Shown: in pieces, positions 52,819 to 62,034 of the stretch | How the letters are laid out: every line of letters starts with the position of its first letter | How positions within the stretch are numbered: the first letter of the stretch is position 1 | Assembly: GCF_014699035.1 (NCBI RefSeq) | Contig: NZ_JACXAA010000001.1 | Location: 682,001 to 746,000, forward strand | From: Spirosoma validum | GTDB lineage: Bacteria > Bacteroidota > Bacteroidia > Cytophagales > Spirosomataceae | Direction of reading: 5' to 3' | DNA: 64,000 bases | The notes under the pieces: generated by a model | Told to the model about the DNA's origin: nothing | Seen by the model: the letters and a program-made list of their open reading frames with translations, nothing else | The model's database searches: none | Position numbers and translations under genes: made by a program

Positions 52819-54501
52819 TTATTCTACCGCGAACTTCATTAACCACTGCGCTACGGTTGCATTGGTCAGATTGAAAATAAGATTGGGAAATAATCCCAAT
52901 ACCAACGCCATTACGCCCAAAGGAATCAGCATAAGTTTCTCACGTGCTGTTAAGTCAGCAAGTACCGCCGTAACGTCTTGTGGCGAGTCGAATGGACGAA
53001 TCCAGGCTGGACCAAAGAACATACGCTGAAACGTCCAGAGAAAATAAGCTGCAGCCAGCAAAATCCCGGTTGTAGCAACGGCGGTTAGCCAGCCAGGAAG
53101 CCATTGCGACTGAAAGCTACCCATCAGCGTAAACAATTCACCCACAAATCCGGAAAAACCGGGCAATCCTAACGAGGCAAAGAAAGCGATTGCCGTCAGC
53201 GTAGTATATTGGGGCATCGGTTGCATCAGCCCCCGGTATGAGTCGATCCGTCGATCATACGTGCGGTCATACAGTACACCCGCAATCAGGAACAGCATGG
53301 CCGACAGAATACCGTGGCTCACCATCTGATAAATGGCTCCGTTGATGCCTTCGGCGGTAAGCGACGCAACACCCAGCAGGACAAACCCCATGTGCGACAC
53401 GGATGAATAGGCGATCATTTTCTTGAGATCCATCTGCGCCAGCGCATTCAGTCCTCCATACACAATGGACAACGTACCCAGAACGCCCAACGCCTGAGCA
53501 TACTCAGCAGCGCCATCGGGGAAGAAATCCCAAACAATACGTAGGAAACCATAGCCACCTATTTTCAGTAACACACCCGCCAATATGACAGATACGGGTG
53601 TAGGAGCCTCTACGTGTGCATCAGGGAGCCATGTATGTACGGGCACAATCGGCAATTTGATTGCGAATCCGATGAACACAGCCCAGAAAGCCAGCATCCG
53701 TGCAGGCAGACCCAGTACGATTGGCTCGGCAGCAGGATTTAGAAAAGCATTTGGCAGGTAATTACCACCATCGGCCAGATGACGCATATCGAATGTATGA
53801 ACGATTTGCGACGGATTAAGCTGGCCGTTCTGAAGATACGCCTGTATAGTCCGAATAAGTTCGTCCGATACGGCTGATGGGGACGCCACTACGCCAGTCG
53901 CTACTGCCGTGCTGACGGGGTCCATAACGGATAGATAGAGCCCAATCATGACTAACAGAATCAGCAACGAGCCCAGTAATGTGTACAGGAAAAATTTGAT
54001 GGATGCATATTCCCGGCGGGGTCCTCCCCAAAGCCCGATCAGGAAATACATCGGGAGGAGCATAAACTCGAAGAACAGAAAAAACAAAAAGAAATCGAGA
54101 GCGACGAAGCACCCCATGATCGTGCCGGTCAGCAAAAGGTACAGCGAAAAGTACGCTCTGGTACGTGTCGTTATGGTTGTCCAGGACGAAATAACGCCAA
54201 TCAGCATCACAACAGCCGACAATATCACCAGAGGCAGGCTCATTCCATCAATGCCAACCAGGTAACGAATGGAGGCAATTCCCATATTACCGAGCGGTAA
54301 CGTAATCCAGTCAGCCTGTTCAAGAAGTTGATAACCTGCCAGCGTCTTATCAAAACTGGCATAGGCTACTGCTGACAGCAAAACCTCAATCAACGTAATG
54401 ACCAAAGCAATCCGCCGGAACTGGGACGCCTGATTTTCCGGCATTAGTACCACCAGCAGCGACCCAAATAACGGTAGAAAAATAAGTAGCGAAAGAATCA
54501 T
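52819..54501 (-). CDS. nuoM: NADH-quinone oxidoreductase subunit M
   Basis: A 560-residue antiporter-like subunit of complex I with about 14 membrane helices. It has LPDAHVEAPTPVSVILAGVLLKIGGYG (the proton-channel Lys region), the key Glu in the FFLFFEFMLLPMYFLIG helix, and the FFASLGLPGFSGFVGE segment. It is the last nuo gene here. The usual next gene, nuoN, is absent: the neighbour is the convergent DUF6169 gene. Confidence 0.96.
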   Translation of the reverse strand: MILSLLIFLPLFGSLLVVLMPENQASQFRRIALVITLIEVLLSAVAYASFDKTLAGYQLLEQADWITLPLGNMGIASIRYLVGIDGMSLPLVILSAVVMLIGVISSWTTITTRTRAYFSLYLLLTGTIMGCFVALDFFLFFLFFEFMLLPMYFLIGLWGGPRREYASIKFFLYTLLGSLLILLVMIGLYLSVMDPVSTAVATGVVASPSAVSDELIRTIQAYLQNGQLNPSQIVHTFDMRHLADGGNYLPNAFLNPAAEPIVLGLPARMLAFWAVFIGFAIKLPIVPVHTWLPDAHVEAPTPVSVILAGVLLKIGGYGFLRIVWDFFPDGAAEYAQALGVLGTLSIVYGGLNALAQMDLKKMIAYSSVSHMGFVLLGVASLTAEGINGAIYQMVSHGILSAMLFLIAGVLYDRTYDRRIDSYRGLMQPMPQYTTLTAIAFFASLGLPGFSGFVGELFTLMGSFQSQWLPGWLTAVATTGILLAAAYFLWTFQRMFFGPAWIRPFDSPQDVTAVLADLTAREKLMLIPLGVMALVLGLFPNLIFNLTNATVAQWLMKFAVE

Positions 54502-54535: not shown

Positions 54536-56443
54536 TTACAGCAACCACCAAAGTATGAGTAACAAGCCGACTACAGCCGCCGTAATATACGACTGCACCA
54601 GGCCATTCTGCACTGAACGAGTTATCCGACCTAACCGGCTAATGCACCAGGCCAGGCCATTAACAAAGCCATCTATCACAAACCGATCGAGCCCACTCGC
54701 AAGATAAGCCAGCGTTACGGTTGATATACCGGCACCGTTGACAGCTCTATCAATTACTCGTTGATCGGCATGGTTAAGCAACGTAGCAAGCTTACGTATC
54801 GGGTTGATAAATACGTAGTGATACATCGTGTCCAGAAAACCGTATTCTACTGAAAGGCGGACGTAGCTACGTTGTGAATGAGGTTCACGCATTCGAAAAC
54901 CCAGCCAGCCACCGATTAATACCAAGCCGATGGATACTGGTGCCAGCCACCAAAAGTTCTGTCCCTCGGTTGCTGGGAACAGTTTAAAAAACCAGCTACT
55001 ATGAGCAGATAAAGGATTTAGCGCAAACCAGAACCATACGGATAAAACGGCCAGGATAAGCACTGGCCCACGCATCAGCCAATCAGGTTCGTGCGCCTGA
55101 CTTAACGGTACCACATCGTTACGATAATCGCCAAAGAAGACTAGCCGCCACTGCCGGACCATGTAAAAAGCCGTTACCCCTGACGACAGTAGGAGTAGTA
55201 CGGGCACAAGGTACGACAACCCATCGTTTTGTGCTGAAGACCAATGAAACGCTTCACCAAGAATGGCTTCTTTCGACAGAAAACCAGAGAAAAAGGGCAG
55301 GCCTGACAGGGCTGCAGCACAAACGGTATAGGCTATAAACGTTGTCGGTAGCGCTTTACGTAAGCCACCCATGTGCCGCATATCCTGTGTATGGACCGCG
55401 TGGATCACAGCGCCTGCACTCAGAAATAATCCGGCTTTGAAAAAGGCATGCGTCAGTAAATGAAACATCGCTCCGCTGACATTGCCCGTTCCCATCGCAG
55501 CGACCATCAGGCCCAGTTGCGAAACGGTCGAAAAGGCAAGTACTTTCTTGATATCAGTCTGAAAGACTGCCGAATAGCCGCCCCAGAGCGTTGTAATGGT
55601 ACCAACTACCGTAATGACGACTAATGCGTCCGGCGAAAGCAATGGATGAATTCGAGCAAGAAGAAAGATTCCAGCCGCAACCATCGTGGCCGCATGAAGC
55701 AAAGCCGATACAGGTGTAGGGCCTTCCATCGCGTCGGGAAGCCAGGTTAGTAATGGAAATTGCGCCGACTTACCCACGCAGCCCATAAACAAACACAAAC
55801 CAAGAGCTGTCGATGGTATTTCACCTGAATTGGGAGCAGTTAATGAAATTAATTCAAGGGTATTGAAATAGTAATACGTCAGGAAAATACCGATCAGGAA
55901 ACCAATATCCCCAACGCGATTCATCAGGAAGGCTTTTTTAGCGGCCTGACCAGCGGCAGGACGATCCGTATAGAAGCCAATCAACAGGTAAGAAGCCAAG
56001 CCTACCAATTCCCAAAAGGCATACAATACCAGCAGGTTGCCAGCCAGAACAATACCCAGCATCGCACCAACGAATAATTGAAGATAGGCAAAGTAACGAC
56101 CTAGTTTAGGTTCATCGTGGAGATACGACAGCGAATAGAGCTGTACAAGGAGCGCGACAAAATGAACCAGGATCAGCATCAACGCGGTGAGCGCATCGAC
56201 TTGAAAACTAATGCCAAATGAACTACCTGATAGCGTTGCCCAATTAGTCTGGATAAGCATCGGCTGTTCTGCTACGTTCATAGCCACCACTATCGATACG
56301 GCTAAGCCTATACTTGTCAATAGGATGGCTAAAGCACCCGCTATTCGTCGATGAGTTAGCAGCAATACCAGGAACCCCGCAAAAGGCAAGGTTAGTAAAG
56401 CGGCAACCGATGCAGACAATAACGGGGAAGCGTCGAGGGGCAT
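54536..56443 (-). CDS. nuoL: NADH-quinone oxidoreductase subunit L
   Basis: A 635-residue antiporter-like subunit of complex I, including the long C-terminal lateral helix (about 530-600) and a final membrane helix. Diagnostic segments are the YAFWELVGLASYLLIGF helix with the functional Glu, GCVGKSAQFPLLTWLPDAMEGPTPVSALLHAATMVAAG, and HAFFKAGLFLSAGAVIHAVH with the channel Lys. It is 34 bases upstream of nuoM, with a small CCGGCA hairpin between them. Confidence 0.96.
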   Translation of the reverse strand: MPLDASPLLSASVAALLTLPFAGFLVLLLTHRRIAGALAILLTSIGLAVSIVVAMNVAEQPMLIQTNWATLSGSSFGISFQVDALTALMLILVHFVALLVQLYSLSYLHDEPKLGRYFAYLQLFVGAMLGIVLAGNLLVLYAFWELVGLASYLLIGFYTDRPAAGQAAKKAFLMNRVGDIGFLIGIFLTYYYFNTLELISLTAPNSGEIPSTALGLCLFMGCVGKSAQFPLLTWLPDAMEGPTPVSALLHAATMVAAGIFLLARIHPLLSPDALVVITVVGTITTLWGGYSAVFQTDIKKVLAFSTVSQLGLMVAAMGTGNVSGAMFHLLTHAFFKAGLFLSAGAVIHAVHTQDMRHMGGLRKALPTTFIAYTVCAAALSGLPFFSGFLSKEAILGEAFHWSSAQNDGLSYLVPVLLLLSSGVTAFYMVRQWRLVFFGDYRNDVVPLSQAHEPDWLMRGPVLILAVLSVWFWFALNPLSAHSSWFFKLFPATEGQNFWWLAPVSIGLVLIGGWLGFRMREPHSQRSYVRLSVEYGFLDTMYHYVFINPIRKLATLLNHADQRVIDRAVNGAGISTVTLAYLASGLDRFVIDGFVNGLAWCISRLGRITRSVQNGLVQSYITAAVVGLLLILWWLL

Positions 56444-56504: not shown

Positions 56505-57140
56505 TTAACCCGTTTTTAGCCAGCCCGTCACACTGAGTCGCTCTCGAGTAGCCGGTAAAACCTCGTGTTCCAGGCGACCACTCTCGAAACAGACCAGTCG
56601 GCCACCTACTGGCGAAACCGTAATTTGCTGTTCTGACGTCTCGTCGGAATCAGGCAAATAGATGGCTAATTGACCACCGTCGCTTTCCTGCCAATCCGTA
56701 TTCAAGTAACAGATAACCGAAAGTTTTCGGCGTGAATCGCTCCGAAATTGATCGAGATGACGCTTGTAGAACGTACCGGGCGGATAGAGCGCGTAATGAA
56801 ATTCATAATCCCGCAAACCGAGATAACACGTCCGATTAACGTACTGAACGAATTCGCCGATACGTAGCAGAAAAGCGGTTTCTTCGGGTGTAGCCGTAGC
56901 TTCCTCTAACCATAAAATTTCATCGCCACGAATTGTATTTTCAACGGTTACCTGTTGATTTCCAATGCCAGCCGCCCGAAACTGACCAGCCGCCCGACGT
57001 TCACGTAGTCGACCAGCCAAAGCTGTTACGTCGCCGGGTGCTAGAAAATTATCGGTCATCCCATAACCATTGGTCAGAATTCCGTCGATAATCGGCTCAA
57101 AAAGCATCTCGGTTTGAGACCCGTGGTCTGCATTATTCAT
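56505..57140 (-). CDS. 2-oxoglutarate/Fe(II)-dependent oxygenase inside the nuo run
   Basis: A 211-residue dioxygenase-fold protein. The iron ligands are H and D in KRHLDQFRSD and the distal H in GRLEHEVLPA, with the 2-oxoglutarate Arg in RERLSVTGWL. The order and the GGQLAIYLPD strand are those of the prolyl-4-hydroxylase-like 2OG-Fe(II) family. The start used is 57140 (MNNADHGSQTE). It lies between nuoK and nuoL on the same strand, with 45- and 61-base gaps, so it is probably part of the nuo transcript. A protein-modifying role on complex I or a respiratory partner is a guess. Confidence 0.88.
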   Translation of the reverse strand: MNNADHGSQTEMLFEPIIDGILTNGYGMTDNFLAPGDVTALAGRLRERRAAGQFRAAGIGNQQVTVENTIRGDEILWLEEATATPEETAFLLRIGEFVQYVNRTCYLGLRDYEFHYALYPPGTFYKRHLDQFRSDSRRKLSVICYLNTDWQESDGGQLAIYLPDSDETSEQQITVSPVGGRLVCFESGRLEHEVLPATRERLSVTGWLKTG

Positions 57141-57185
57141 AATAGCTGTGGTTTTCCACGACAACAACGAGCGGTCGACATTACG

Positions 57186-57497
57186 TTACTGTTTCAACTC
57201 ATTCAATTCATCTAATTGCGCTGTTCTGAAATGCCGATACACCTGCAACACAATGGCCAGTGCAACCGCCGACTCCGCAGCGGCCACAACCATCACGAAT
57301 AAAGCCAGCATTTGCCCCTGCAATCGATCAGGATCGTACTGACTAAACGCAACAAGATTGATATTTACGGCGTTGAGCATCAATTCTATGCCCATCAACA
57401 CAACAATGGCGTGCCGTTTGACAACAACCACCGCTAAACCAATGCTGAAGAGTGCAGCTCCGACAAATAAAAACAGATGGCTATCAACGGGTTGCAT
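57186..57497 (-). CDS. nuoK: NADH-quinone oxidoreductase subunit K
   Basis: A 103-residue subunit with three membrane helices, the usual length. GIELMLNAVNINLVAF carries the conserved Glu in helix 2, and AAAESAVALAIVL the conserved Glu in helix 3, both on the proton path. It overlaps nuoJ by 14 bases. Confidence 0.96.
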   Translation of the reverse strand: MQPVDSHLFLFVGAALFSIGLAVVVVKRHAIVVLMGIELMLNAVNINLVAFSQYDPDRLQGQMLALFVMVVAAAESAVALAIVLQVYRHFRTAQLDELNELKQ

Positions 57498-58041
57498 GAC
57501 GGAACGGTTTACGGTGTGAAGCGGCCAGATACGTAGCGCCGACCAAAGAAGCTAACAGGAGAATCCCCGCAATTTCAAACGGAACTACGTACTCCGTCAT
57601 GAGTTGTTTCCCAATCGTATTGATGGTACTTTGCCAGCCAACAGGTTGGTTCAATAAAGCGAAATTCGCGCGGATCAATAGCGAGAACAGAGCCGTACAT
57701 AAACTGCCAGCCAGCAATATGCCCCAAAATAAACCTGAACGCGCCCCTGAACGATTCAGGGAAGCAACACGATTGGGTTGCTGGCTATTCGTATTGGCTG
57801 GTACTTCGGCTTTGTGCGTGAGCATAATACCAAAAATCACCAATACCAGCACCCCACCCACATAAATCATAATTTGAGCAATAGCCAGAAAGTCAGCGCT
57901 CGCCAGGACAAAAAGGCCGGCTACACCCAGCAGCGTTAGTAAAAGAAAAAAAGCGGCATACAGTACGTTACGCGTGAGTAAAACCGCCAGTGCGCCTGCG
58001 AGAGCAAGAGCCGAAAAAATATAAAAAGCTAGTTGAATCAC
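57484..58041 (-). CDS. nuoJ: NADH-quinone oxidoreductase subunit J
   Basis: A 185-residue subunit with five membrane helices. The family segment LLTLLGVAGLFVLASADFLAIAQIMIYVGGVLVLVIFGIML holds helix 3 with its pi-bulge region. It overlaps nuoK by 14 bases and follows nuoI by 20 bases, so translation is coupled. Confidence 0.95.
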   Translation of the reverse strand: MIQLAFYIFSALALAGALAVLLTRNVLYAAFFLLLTLLGVAGLFVLASADFLAIAQIMIYVGGVLVLVIFGIMLTHKAEVPANTNSQQPNRVASLNRSGARSGLFWGILLAGSLCTALFSLLIRANFALLNQPVGWQSTINTIGKQLMTEYVVPFEIAGILLLASLVGATYLAASHRKPFRHATR

Positions 58042-58061: not shown

Positions 58062-59573
58062 TTACTCAGCCTGTCCGTCTTCTGGTTTTGCCTTGGGTTT
58101 CATCGTGGGTCGGAAAGCTGGTTTGGACTTCGGCGGATCAATCCTAGGGGCTTCGTCTTTTTCATCAGCTTCAAGAGCTGCCTGAATAGCTGGTTCAGCT
58201 TTGCTTTCGTCAATGTTAGGCGTCGTCGGAGCGGGTTTCATCGTCGGTCTGAAACCGGCGGGTTTGGGCTTTGTAACTTCTGGCTTAACGGCTTCCGGTT
58301 CCTGAGTTGGCTGCGTTTCGACGGGTTTTGCTGGCTTCATCGTTGGCCGAAAACCGCTTGGCTTTGGCGCCGATGGTTCCTGGGTTTCCGTCGTATCCGA
58401 TTTTGGTTCTTCTGACTTCGCTACCGGCGGCTTCATCGTTGGCCTAAAAGCTGGTTTCGCTTTCGGTGGTTCAGACGTCAATGGTGTTTCTGTCTCGTTT
58501 ACCGGCGGCTTCATCGTTGGCCGGAAACCAGTTGGCTTTGCACTTGGCGCCGTAGGCTTTGGTGTTACAGTCGTTTCGGGGGCCGCATTTACATCTGATT
58601 CGGAAGTTGCCGGTTTGGATGTTCCGGCTGCTGGCTTCATACTGGGGCGGAAGCCAGGCGGTTTTGCGCTTGGCTTAGATGCGATTGGTTGTTCAGTCGG
58701 TAAAGCTTGTTCGTCCTGTTTTGCTTCAATCGGAACGTCAGTTGGTGGCGTAGCGGGTTTCTGAGTTGGCTTGAAAACCGGATGTTTTTTGGTTTCCAAA
58801 CCACACTGGGCAATCTGCTGCATTTCCTCCGGCGTCGCATCCGTAAGTGGATGTTCAATGGAAGAGCCTTCGGAGTTAGCAGGTTCGGCAGGTGGCGTTT
58901 TAGAGACTGGCTTTGCCGTTGGCTTAAATATAGGTCGGGCGGGGCTGGCCGTTGGTTTCGCGGCTGGCTCTGTCGACTGATTACCGCTGGCTGCCTTAGC
59001 AGCTAGTTGAGCGGCTTTGGCAGCTTCTTTCTCCTGAAGGAATTGTTCGTATAAAGACCGTTTCTCATCGGCCTGTTCAGGCGTCAAATTCGAGAAATGA
59101 TACGTTAGTTCACCTAGCTCAAACTCGCTGTAGTCGAACTTCTTGTCCATGGTCAGGCACTCGGTGGGGCAAACCACCGTGCAAAGGCCGCAGTAGCAGC
59201 ACTTGGCCATGTCAATGTCAAATTTGCCCGCATACAGCCGAATTGGCGATCCATCCGACGCACGACCTACTTCTTCCGTGGCTTTGATGGCGTCAATGGT
59301 AATGCAGTCTACCGGGCAAACTTTCGCGCACTTGTCGCAAACAATACAGTCATCAATTTCATTACGTAACCGATAACGACCATTGTCAGGAATGGGCAGT
59401 TGTTCGTGCGGGTATTGCAGCGTAACCAGGCCATTCTGTAAATCGAAGTAATTCGCACTCGCAATGCCTTCGGGTGTCCGGCGCTTTGTGGCGTTACGTA
59501 GGTGCCTGAATGTCAGACTCAAGCCTTTCAGCGTTGTCCGAATACCCAACTGTATATCCTTGAAATAAGACAT
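58062..59573 (-). CDS. nuoI: NuoI (complex I 8Fe ferredoxin subunit) with a long repeat tail
   Basis: A 503-residue protein; usual NuoI is about 160-220. Residues 1-165 are normal NuoI: two [4Fe-4S] sites, C76-x2-C79-x2-C82-x3-C86-P and C125-x2-C128-x2-C131-x3-C135-P, which carry electrons toward quinone in the peripheral arm. From about 190 to the end the chain is Pro/Lys/Thr/Ala/Glu-rich with eight spaced motifs of the form xFRPTMKP, at F216, 267, 308, 350, 376, 408, 441 and 487; the first two are degenerate (FKPTAKP, FKPTQKP). The frame is open throughout and runs 20 bases before nuoJ, so it is not a frameshift or misjoined gene. The tail is probably disordered and faces the cytoplasm. Confidence 0.94.
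   Translation of the reverse strand: MSYFKDIQLGIRTTLKGLSLTFRHLRNATKRRTPEGIASANYFDLQNGLVTLQYPHEQLPIPDNGRYRLRNEIDDCIVCDKCAKVCPVDCITIDAIKATEEVGRASDGSPIRLYAGKFDIDMAKCCYCGLCTVVCPTECLTMDKKFDYSEFELGELTYHFSNLTPEQADEKRSLYEQFLQEKEAAKAAQLAAKAASGNQSTEPAAKPTASPARPIFKPTAKPVSKTPPAEPANSEGSSIEHPLTDATPEEMQQIAQCGLETKKHPVFKPTQKPATPPTDVPIEAKQDEQALPTEQPIASKPSAKPPGFRPSMKPAAGTSKPATSESDVNAAPETTVTPKPTAPSAKPTGFRPTMKPPVNETETPLTSEPPKAKPAFRPTMKPPVAKSEEPKSDTTETQEPSAPKPSGFRPTMKPAKPVETQPTQEPEAVKPEVTKPKPAGFRPTMKPAPTTPNIDESKAEPAIQAALEADEKDEAPRIDPPKSKPAFRPTMKPKAKPEDGQAE
58090..59010 (-). repeat. Spaced coding repeats for FRPTMKP in nuoI
   Basis: Eight copies of a 21-base unit coding for FRPTMKP-like motifs lie 26 to 51 codons apart. 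The six later copies are near-identical in protein and similar in DNA, while the sequence between copies differs. This pattern suggests growth of the tail by unequal exchange followed by selection on the motif. Confidence 0.8.
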
Positions 59574-59628: not shown

Positions 59629-62034
59629 TTAAATTTTGGGATAGCGATTCGGTTCAGCTTCACTCATAAGCGCATAAACCGTTTCGATAATATCGTCAAC
59701 GTTGGGTTTTGAGAAATAATCTCCGTCGGACCCATAAGGAGGCCGATGCGCTTTTGCCGAGATGGTACGGGGTGCTGAATCTAAATAGCGATAAGCGTTC
59801 TGTCCTTCCACAACTTGCTGCATCATATAAGCCGACGCGCCACCCGGTACGTCCTCGTCCGCAAAAACTACCCGGTTTGTTCTTTTAATGGACTCAACAA
59901 TGGTGTGATGAACATCAAATGGAATCAGGGTCTGTACATCGATCACTTCGGTATTTATTCCCATCTGCGCTAGCTGATTAGCGGCTTCCATTACAATCCG
60001 GCACATGGAGCCATAGGTTACAACTGTTACGTCGGAACCGAAACGTATCGTTTCCGGTACGCCCAAGGGCACGCAAAACTCCGCCAGATTATCGGGTACT
60101 AATTCTTTCAGGCGATAGCCGTTCAGCGACTCAATCAACAAAGCCGGATCGTCTCCTTTGATCAGCGTATTGTAAAAACCAGCAGCCTGGGTCATGTTCC
60201 GGGGCACCAGTACATGCAGGCCTCGTAAACTCCCAAGCATGGCGCCTAACGGCGAGCCCGAATGCCAGATGCCTTCCAGCCGATGTCCACGGGTTCGAAT
60301 AATCAGGGGGGCTTTCTGGCCACCTTTCGTCCGATAAAGCAACGTAGCCAAATCGTCCGTTAAAGTAGCCAGGGTATAATAAACGTAGTCGAAGTATTGA
60401 ATTTCGACAATGGGCCGCAGACCGCGCATGGCCAGACCGATTCCCTGGCCAATAATGGTGGTTTCACGAATGCCTGTGTCGGTGATACGTATCTCACCGT
60501 ATTTCTCCTGTAAGCCCGCAAATCCCTGATTGACATCCCCAATTTGCCCAACATCCTCACCCAGAGCGACTACGCGTGGGTCGCGAGCGAACAGACTGTC
60601 AAAATAATGCTGGAGAAGTTGATAACCATCAAGAAGAGAACTATCGTCGGTAAACTGCGCTGGAACGCTTTCGACCAGCATTGGCGAATCAGGCGATTCG
60701 CTGTACAGGTGCGAGTTAAACCGATCATCATTTTCAGCGTTTGTGCGCTCCAGCCAAACTTTTAATTGCTGACGACCAGCACTCGTATCGGCTCGTAAAA
60801 TACGTAACGCTTTTCGCACAGCCGCAACGGCATCCCGACGTAGCGGAGTAAACGTTTTCCGTAGCTCTTCCCGAATCGCCATGAGCTCCGCTGATTTGGC
60901 GTGATGACGAGCCGCCTTTTGCAGCAAATCAAGCGCTTCTTCGAAATCGCCTTTCATTGACTCCTGAAAAGAACTCCAGGCCGCCAGCCGCGCTTCTTTT
61001 GCGGTTTGTTTCGCTTTGGCTTCAATGGTTTCCAACTCTTCGTTGGTAGCATAACCATTTTCCAGAATCCACAGCCGGAAAATCCGGTTGCAATCCTGTT
61101 CGGCTTCCCAGGCCAATCGATCCTTCGACTTATACCGTTCGTGGGAGCCAGACGTTGAATGTCCCTGCGGTTGAGTAAGTTCCTGTACATGCACCAACAC
61201 CGGTACGTGTTCGGTACGACAGATATGAGCCGCCTGCTGGTACGTTTCCAGCAACGCTACGTAATCCCAGCCTTTTACCGTAAAAATTTCCAGCCCCTTG
61301 TCTTCTGAGTCGCGCTGAAAACCAGCAAGCGCCTTCGAAATACTACCCTTAATTGTCTGATATTCAATAGGAACCGATATACCGTAACCATCATCCCAGA
61401 CCGACATAAGTAAAGGCACCTGCAACACGCCAGCCGCGTTCATCGTCTCCCAGAACATGCCTTGCGAAGTCGATGCATCGCCAATGGTAGCAAAGACGAT
61501 TTCATTGCCGTGGTGCGAGAAATTCGTCAGATCATTCAGGTCAGGATTTTCCCGAAACAGCTTGGAGGCATAGGCTAGACCGAGCGAACGCGGAATTTGC
61601 CCGGCAGTAGGGGAAATATCACAAACAGAGTTATAGAGTTCCGTTTGATTTCGCCACAATCCCTGCTCATCAAGCCAGCGAGTGGCGTAATGACCATTCA
61701 TCGACCGACCACCCGTGTTGGGTTCAGCTTCGAGATCGGTGTGGGCGTATAGTTGTGCAAAAAATTCTTGCCAGCTCAATTCGCCTAACGCGGCTACAAA
61801 CGTCTGGTCACGATAATATCCCGAGCGAAAATCACCCCGATCAAAGGCACGAGCGGCTGCGATTTGTGCTAATTCTTTACCATCGCCGAAAATTCCGAAT
61901 TTAGCCCGTCCTCCCATCACATCACGCCGACCTAACAAACTCACCTGCCGGCTTTCGCAGGCTAACCGGTAATCTGATAGGATTTTTTCACGACTGAGAA
62001 TATCAGTCGAGCGGAGTTGTTCGTTTGCTATCAC
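59629..62034 (-). CDS. Fused E1 alpha/beta 2-oxoacid dehydrogenase
   Basis: An 801-residue thiamine-diphosphate enzyme in which the alpha (about 1-390) and beta (about 465-801) E1 subunits are one chain. The alpha part has GDASTSQGMFWETMNAAGV near 190, the ThDP/Mg segment with GDA in place of GDG, and HSTSGSHERYKSKDRL. The beta part has ALGEDVGQIGDVNQGF, ITDTGIRETTIIGQGIGLAMRG and FADEDVPGGASAYM. It is the decarboxylating subunit of a pyruvate or branched-chain 2-oxoacid complex; wording is nearer the branched-chain type. E2 and E3 are not here. It lies 55 bases upstream of nuoI on the same strand. Confidence 0.93.
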   Translation of the reverse strand: MIANEQLRSTDILSREKILSDYRLACESRQVSLLGRRDVMGGRAKFGIFGDGKELAQIAAARAFDRGDFRSGYYRDQTFVAALGELSWQEFFAQLYAHTDLEAEPNTGGRSMNGHYATRWLDEQGLWRNQTELYNSVCDISPTAGQIPRSLGLAYASKLFRENPDLNDLTNFSHHGNEIVFATIGDASTSQGMFWETMNAAGVLQVPLLMSVWDDGYGISVPIEYQTIKGSISKALAGFQRDSEDKGLEIFTVKGWDYVALLETYQQAAHICRTEHVPVLVHVQELTQPQGHSTSGSHERYKSKDRLAWEAEQDCNRIFRLWILENGYATNEELETIEAKAKQTAKEARLAAWSSFQESMKGDFEEALDLLQKAARHHAKSAELMAIREELRKTFTPLRRDAVAAVRKALRILRADTSAGRQQLKVWLERTNAENDDRFNSHLYSESPDSPMLVESVPAQFTDDSSLLDGYQLLQHYFDSLFARDPRVVALGEDVGQIGDVNQGFAGLQEKYGEIRITDTGIRETTIIGQGIGLAMRGLRPIVEIQYFDYVYYTLATLTDDLATLLYRTKGGQKAPLIIRTRGHRLEGIWHSGSPLGAMLGSLRGLHVLVPRNMTQAAGFYNTLIKGDDPALLIESLNGYRLKELVPDNLAEFCVPLGVPETIRFGSDVTVVTYGSMCRIVMEAANQLAQMGINTEVIDVQTLIPFDVHHTIVESIKRTNRVVFADEDVPGGASAYMMQQVVEGQNAYRYLDSAPRTISAKAHRPPYGSDGDYFSKPNVDDIIETVYALMSEAEPNRYPKI

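Follow-up and report, generated by a model that had tools for sequence, protein, structure and literature searches.

The window, by which we mean the whole stretch of 64,000 nucleotides analysed here, comes from the genome of Spirosoma validum and carries a run of complex I genes on its reverse strand. These lie in the order nuoI, nuoJ, nuoK, nuoL and nuoM, with a 2OG-Fe(II) oxygenase gene between nuoK and nuoL and a fused 2-oxoacid dehydrogenase E1 gene that ends 55 bp before nuoI in the same orientation (Table 1). The NuoI frame opens with two CxxCxxxCP-type cluster motifs in a NuoI-like fold region, as is found in NuoI/NdhI (TYKY) subunits. With the curated NuoI model TIGR01971 it scored 86 bits, which is below the curated cut-off of 113 and above the 60 bits obtained with the ndhI model. 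Among solved structures the best match to the core was chloroplast NdhI (7wfg_I, 4e-17, 65.8 bits), followed by bacterial NuoI (8qby_I, 61.4 bits) and mitochondrial chains (about 55 bits); by this slight margin of about 4 bits, the core appears closer to NdhI than to other solved NuoI. The first-pass annotation, made from the letters of the window, had placed a two-cluster NuoI in the first 165 residues. Fer4 and NuoI models agree with it, with the addition that a predicted helix follows at residues 165–196, and the low-complexity tail therefore covers approximately residues 197–503.

Table 1. Features of the nuoI region of S. validum, given as positions in the window.
Feature	Position	Strand	Basis or remark
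nuoM	52819..54501	-	domain search
nuoL	54536..56443	-	domain search
2OG-Fe(II) prolyl-hydroxylase-like gene (PHD/PPHD type), between nuoK and nuoL	56505..57167	-	PF13640; 4iw3_A
nuoK	57186..57497	-	Oxidored_q2
nuoJ	57484..58041	-	Oxidored_q3
nuoI of second (NuoEFG-less type) complex I, 503 aa	58062..59573	-	Fer4 domains; NuoI/NdhI models
Two-[4Fe-4S] ferredoxin-like core, residues 1-165	59079..59573	-	Fer4; solved relative 7wfg_I
Predicted linker helix, residues 165-196	58986..59081	-	AlphaFold2 pLDDT block means 65-87
Low-complexity tail, residues 197-503	58065..58985	-	P 21%, A 12%, K 11%, T 11%, E 10%; no W/Y
Motif 1, FKPTAKP (F216)	58908..58928	-	sequence pattern
Single-copy conserved element NSEGSSIEHPLTDATPEEMQQIAQCGLE / HPLTDATPEEMQQIAQ, residues 233-260	58794..58877	-	profile HMM
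Motif 2, FKPTQKP (F267)	58755..58775	-	sequence pattern
Motif 3, FRPSMKP (F308)	58632..58652	-	sequence pattern
Motif 4, FRPTMKP (F350)	58506..58526	-	sequence pattern
Motif 5, FRPTMKP (F376)	58428..58448	-	sequence pattern
Motif 6, FRPTMKP (F408)	58332..58352	-	sequence pattern
Motif 7, FRPTMKP (F441)	58233..58253	-	sequence pattern
Motif 8, FRPTMKP (F487), C-terminal copy, most widely kept between genera	58095..58115	-	sequence pattern
Fused 2-oxoacid dehydrogenase E1, directly upstream of nuoI	59629..62034	-	domain search

The tail contains eight copies of a motif with the general form F-x-P-x-x-K-P, at successive spacings of 51, 41, 42, 26, 32, 33 and 46 residues. In 20,000 shuffles of the tail the mean count was 0.046 and the maximum was 3. 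These positions are exactly those of the first-pass annotation, which had described a Pro/Lys/Thr/Glu-rich tail of about 300 residues with motifs from F216 to F487 and spacers of 26–51 residues. The motif had also been called basic, and in the genus proteins the motif with its flanks (13 aa) indeed carries a mean net charge of +3.5, against −3.6 for spacers. Across 34 genus proteins the motif occurs 3–11 times per gene with a median spacing of 38, and 250 of the 260 tail phenylalanines lie inside motifs, in tails with no tryptophan and three tyrosines. Composition and charge–hydropathy of the tail suit disorder, and the tail is probably disordered. The AlphaFold2 model (mean pLDDT 45, from an alignment of 13 sequences) is poor throughout, the Fe-S core included, with the helix as its sole well-predicted stretch, and hence provides no test of this disorder.

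Selection was analysed in 34 of the 36 genus proteins, leaving out G025 and G029. Over 17 disjoint species pairs, with motifs picked by pattern in either sequence and an aligner that may anchor on them, dN/dS was 0.029 in the core, 0.083 in the helix, 0.050 in motifs and 0.27 in spacers. Because of this possible bias, the comparison was rerun on six close pairs with motifs defined in one member only, in both directions so that each pair was counted twice. In this rerun, pN was 0.0093 in motifs and 0.12 in the rest of the tail, with pS of 0.37 and 0.35, so that motifs change about 13 times less than the remaining tail at equal synonymous divergence. Moreover, 86% of 88 motif comparisons were unchanged, against 23% of spacer 7-mers, and none of 20,000 random spacer draws was as conserved as the motifs. 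By position, the 88 comparisons held no change at F1 or K6, two at M5 and four at T4. The motif is under purifying selection within fast-drifting spacers, a contrast that had first been read from the copies of the single S. validum gene. Exact FRPTMKP copies within a gene share codons at a frequency of 0.447, compared with a random expectation of 0.380 (313 pairs), and a single pair is identical at all six codons. Copies so near to random at synonymous codons are therefore old and held by selection, and recent duplication or gene conversion was rejected within the genus. In the g5 genomes whole repeats are very alike by eye, and their repeats may have been duplicated recently.

Tailed NuoI was matched in all 36 genomes of the genus, with open frames of 310–609 aa; no close relative without a tail was met. 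Possible stops or frameshifts in the tail had also been raised in advance, and here the outcome was divided, as the tail reads through in 34 of the 36 genomes and is broken in two drafts. In G025 (84% complete, in about 380 contigs) the NuoI match is interrupted by two stop codons, TGA and TAA. In G033 (94% complete, 5% contamination) the tail continues in another frame, and the NuoI frame therefore ends early, at 350 aa. Either sequencing error or true mutation may account for these breaks. In G029 the match runs to the contig end. A DNA pattern for FRP[T/S]MKP, with serine as TCN only, was present in 36 of 36 genomes on a single strand each, and the reversed pattern used as control was present in none; in G001–G030, where positions were located, all matches fell within nuoI. 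In the family sample the pattern occurred in 23 of 61 genomes as one cluster per genome, with two single matches for the reversed control, and the clusters compared with the nuoI position (11 of the 23 genomes, S. validum among them) agreed with it. Thus, each genome with FRP[TS]MKP-coding DNA has it concentrated at a single locus, nuoI in all cases checked.

Beyond the genus, the closest named loci belong to Fibrella, Fibrivirga, Arsenicibacter, Rudanella, Fibrisoma, Larkinella, Runella, Dyadobacter and Emticicia, among others. The query matched in 231 of 291 genomes of the order sample, many of them solely through other ferredoxin-like proteins. From the better matches of the genus and order searches, 152 loci were fetched and their NuoI read (149 distinct); most of the 149 terminate in a motif akin to that of Spirosoma, Phi-B-P-x-Phi-B-P, with Phi for a hydrophobic and B for a basic residue. 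A permissive pattern, descriptive only, was found near the C-terminus in 135 of the 149. The 14 misses comprise seven f12 loci and G224, which are almost tailless, the broken G033 (locus L011) and five longer tails (L094, L099, L119, L155 and L156). Motif forms vary: FRPTMKP is found in Spirosoma and many Dyadobacter, FKPSFKP in g5, and FKPVIKP, FKPKMKP and further forms in other lineages. Of all copies, the C-terminal one is retained most widely, also where the tail is short and has just one copy, and five of eight named Runella loci with internal FxPKKP-type repeats terminate in FKPTM[KR]P. The longest case (L042) has 763 aa and 17 motif copies. In the phylum sample (198 genomes, 30 loci read), five loci of families f33 and f46 (L163–L167) carry a different basic repeat at the tail position, such as KLSPMMAAKLAAKK, which is helical-looking and unlike FRPTMKP. 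As judged from these protein sequences, related NuoI tails occur widely across the order, and their repeats are specific to lineages.

The tailed NuoI is not the usual NuoI of a nuoEF cluster, a point that the first-pass annotation missed. The S. validum genome holds two copies each of NuoD and NuoH and two sets of NuoL, NuoM and NuoN. One cluster has nuoA, B, C, D, E, F, an apparent nuoG, H, an untailed NuoI and J, and its L, M and N lie on contig C2. The untailed NuoI has 188 aa, 58 of them beyond the second cluster, and its closest solved structure is Thermus Nqo9 (5e-35). The frame between nuoF and nuoH of this cluster (L188:7135-8220), presumably nuoG, has only 361 aa. The other set consists of the window genes, a nuoN-like gene on contig C6, a lone nuoD on C36 and a lone nuoH on C34; in the 16-kb loci of these lone genes, no matches to NuoA–F were found (queries without NuoG). 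The window locus has NuoI, J, K, L and M together with no NuoE, F or G, as expected for a NuoEFG-less 11-subunit complex I and not for the 14-subunit NADH-oxidising type. In G280 and G136, nuoA, B, C and D stand together without nuoE and nuoF. A second, shorter NuoI-like match was present in 35 of the 36 genus genomes (open frames 189–227 aa), G027 (80% complete) being the one without it, and in S. validum this match is the NuoI of the nuoEF cluster. By gene content, the genome encodes a second complex I, apparently devoid of the NADH-oxidising module, and the tailed NuoI is part of it. Genomes with both complexes might share NuoEFG.

Among 80 non-family genomes from which a tailed-type NuoI was fetched, NuoF was not found at E<1e-150 in 44, of which three hold more distant NuoF relatives (1e-107 to 1e-117) and some hold weaker ones. 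In each of the 44, no fewer than 81 aa follow the second cluster, and in 31 of them this stretch reaches at least 120; at least 80 aa were found in 27 of the 36 genomes with NuoF. Fewer than 70 aa were found in eight of the 80, namely the seven f12 loci and G224, all with NuoF. Hence, the tail goes with the NuoEFG-less type. These eight NuoI are of the tailed type and have no real tail, and the tail is therefore not indispensable to such NuoI. The f12 loci without a motif tail, each in a genome with NuoF, are L105, L117, L122, L123, L125, L129 and L138.

Two neighbouring genes were considered in connection with the tail. The E1 gene adjoins nuoI in all 34 genus loci read, in six g5 loci, in one g8 locus and in Larkinella loci. 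In the loci of Dyadobacter and Runella, where NuoI has a long tail as well, no E1 gene was seen next to nuoI; E1 was accordingly rejected as tail partner and is kept as a lead only. The gene between nuoK and nuoL encodes a 2OG-Fe(II) oxygenase domain and is homologous to PPHD over almost its whole length (4iw3_A, 8e-50 over residues 13–218 of 220; human Egl nine homolog 1, about 1e-12), and is a predicted PHD/PPHD. All 11 genus genomes in the order sample have a PHD gene, which adjoins nuoI-J-K in seven of them; it also stands beside nuoI-J-K in g3, g6 and g7, as well as in Fibrella, Fibrivirga, Arsenicibacter, Rudanella, Fibrisoma and Larkinella soli, and its position between nuoK and nuoL is shared by several genera. 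No PHD match was obtained in S. luteum or S. spitsbergense, and none in the six g5 genomes, G160, G293 or G307, though tail repeats are present in these last.

The single-copy element of the tail was followed with a profile HMM whose 31 distinct source copies necessarily match it. With a threshold of E<1e-10 the element was found in Spirosoma, Fibrella, Fibrivirga, Fibrisoma and Larkinella, sitting elsewhere in the tail in Fibrella, Fibrisoma and Larkinella. It looks like a putative second kind of docking site. Part of it, TDATPDE, may resemble the EF-Tu site of PPHD. A regular expression had suggested that the element was absent from PHD-less Larkinella, and the profile HMM found it there, so that an association of element and PHD was dropped. 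The element is kept without a PHD match in five named genomes (S. luteum, S. spitsbergense and three Larkinella) and was not found in four genomes with operonic PHD (L216–L219). All five Larkinella without close PHD read HPLTDVTP where L. soli, with PHD, reads HPLTDATP; the A/V difference may stem from a single event.

Our tentative proposal, held with somewhat less than even confidence, is that the tail is disordered and acts as a multivalent docking arm where electrons enter the complex, probably for the missing donor. According to this proposal, the 32-residue helix would lead the chain away from the Fe-S core, and past it acidic proline-rich spacers would alternate with basic-hydrophobic Phi-B-P-x-Phi-B-P motifs, FRPTMKP in this case. 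Each motif would be one weak binding site, and several of them on a flexible chain would provide avidity and reach. The arm might then hold or capture one or more electron donors replacing NuoEFG, either a donor enzyme or an acidic carrier (ferredoxin or flavodoxin, for example). A donor is the most likely partner because NuoI sits at the electron-input end and the C-terminus of E. coli NuoI helps to clamp NuoEFG. Multivalent binding had been suggested in the first-pass annotation and is the natural reading. What the data show is the anatomy of the tail, its conservation, its pattern of charges, the age of its copies and a second complex with no nuoEFG next to its genes; disorder, binding and the partner are inferred. 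The second complex shifts the likely partner from the NADH-feeding dehydrogenase, named in the first-pass annotation among other possibilities, to the donor of an 11-subunit complex I. Variants such as FKPVIKP, FKPSFKP and FAPKKP do not indicate one rigid binding pocket throughout the order.

The same alternation of +3.5 motifs and −3.6 spacers, with one phenylalanine per motif, could also serve self- or membrane association. The basic-hydrophobic motifs would then attach to anionic lipid or to acidic spacers in tails nearby, and complex I would gather into patches or arrays as stickers and spacers, with no soluble partner needed. Motif number and spacing vary freely, and the different repeat KLSPMMAAKLAAKK in f33 and f46 occupies the same place, as if chemistry mattered over fixed sequence; against this, exact residues including T4 and M5 are kept between close species of the genus, beyond what charge and hydrophobicity alone should need. 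We consider such association unlikely, though less so than the other alternatives. A structural clamp, in which motifs lie on the hydrophilic arm of their own complex and stabilise assembly while extra copies are spare, has a precedent in the tails of E. coli NuoI, NuoB and NuoF (according to the sections of PMC8357420 available), and would suit the wide retention of the C-terminal copy even in short single-copy tails. However, one arm has few equivalent sites for as many as 17 copies, and the genus keeps all copies, not just the last, which makes a clamp distinctly unlikely.

Oxygen-sensitive modification is less probable still. According to this explanation, the PHD would hydroxylate tail prolines, in the repeats or in the LTDATP element, and thereby tune the complex to oxygen. 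The gene neighbourhood in the genus, in g3, g6, g7 and in the six named taxa agrees with this idea, as does the valine in the element of Larkinella without close PHD, and the closest solved relative of the enzyme is PPHD, which hydroxylates EF-Tu (from part of PMC7864055). Since repeats persist without PHD, a causal link between PHD and tail is unproven; with the element also persisting without PHD, and not found in some PHD genomes, the enzyme was rejected as the reason for the motif, and we give modification a very small chance. A neutral low-complexity tail growing by slippage, with the motif as by-product, would agree with the wide variation in length and copy number, with the g5 repeats that look recently duplicated by eye and with the two broken drafts. 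The dN/dS of 0.05 in motifs against 0.27 in spacers and the near-random synonymous codons between copies, both measured in the genus, make this explanation highly improbable.

The docking-arm proposal can be extended to the whole order, at a level that we regard as rather doubtful. The NuoI tail may be the electron-input device of the order's NuoEFG-less complex I, that is, a multivalent flexible arm in place of a fixed NADH module, recruiting interchangeable donors. A widespread C-terminal motif would have been amplified up to 17-fold, and a chemically similar, unrelated repeat would have evolved separately in other families of the phylum sample. In the passages available of PMC11238625, which cite a 2011 paper by Moparthi and Hagerhall, the 11-subunit complex I is put forward as a possible docking platform for several donors and its direct donor is described as unknown, and the corresponding part of PMC7002350 draws the B. 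fragilis NUO with an unknown donor; the donor feeding NuoEFG-less complex I is thus an open question in these excerpts. The motif is short, tightly conserved and repeated at the electron-entry subunit, and is therefore a ready bait for finding the donor. If the arm instead clusters complexes or binds membrane, this would be an unusual respiratory enzyme with a selected sticker-and-spacer tail. In open-licence papers we found no description of a repeat-bearing NuoI tail or of FRPTMKP, and the word NuoI does not occur in a genome-mining paper on complex I (PMC12361115). NuoEFG-less complex I and linear-motif tails are known separately, and no description of their combination was found in this open-licence literature.

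Compared with known systems, the second complex of Spirosoma resembles the NuoEFG-less 11-subunit complex I, such as the B. fragilis NUO and the complex I-like enzyme of Desulfitobacterium, in having a Q-module and membrane arm without an NADH module (parts of PMC7002350 and PMC11238625). It differs in its scattered genes, in coexisting with a nuoEF-bearing complex I, and in its tail, as the same portions of these two sources mention no repeat-bearing NuoI tail. Pseudomonas putida PPHD (4iw3/4j25) is a homologue of the operonic hydroxylase, and its substrate, as given in the accessible part of PMC7864055, is EF-Tu. In E. coli, NuoI has an extended C-terminus that lies in contact with NuoG, B, F, D and E and helps to hold NuoEFG to the connecting module, and C-terminal extensions together with an insertion loop keep NuoEFG attached (excerpts of PMC8357420). 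This extension covers residues 139–180 and is ordered (same excerpts), whereas that of Spirosoma has about 300 aa and eight repeats with no adjacent nuoEFG. In cyanobacterial and chloroplast NDH-1, electrons enter at NdhI, the closest solved relative of the tailed core by a small margin, and extra subunits such as NdhS and NdhV are used. NdhI chains have 163–196 aa and no long tail, unlike the tailed NuoI of Spirosoma. In the cyanobacterial enzyme, as described in part of PMC6992706, NdhI forms a basic patch, and its basic hairpin and part of NdhH bind the acidic ferredoxin.
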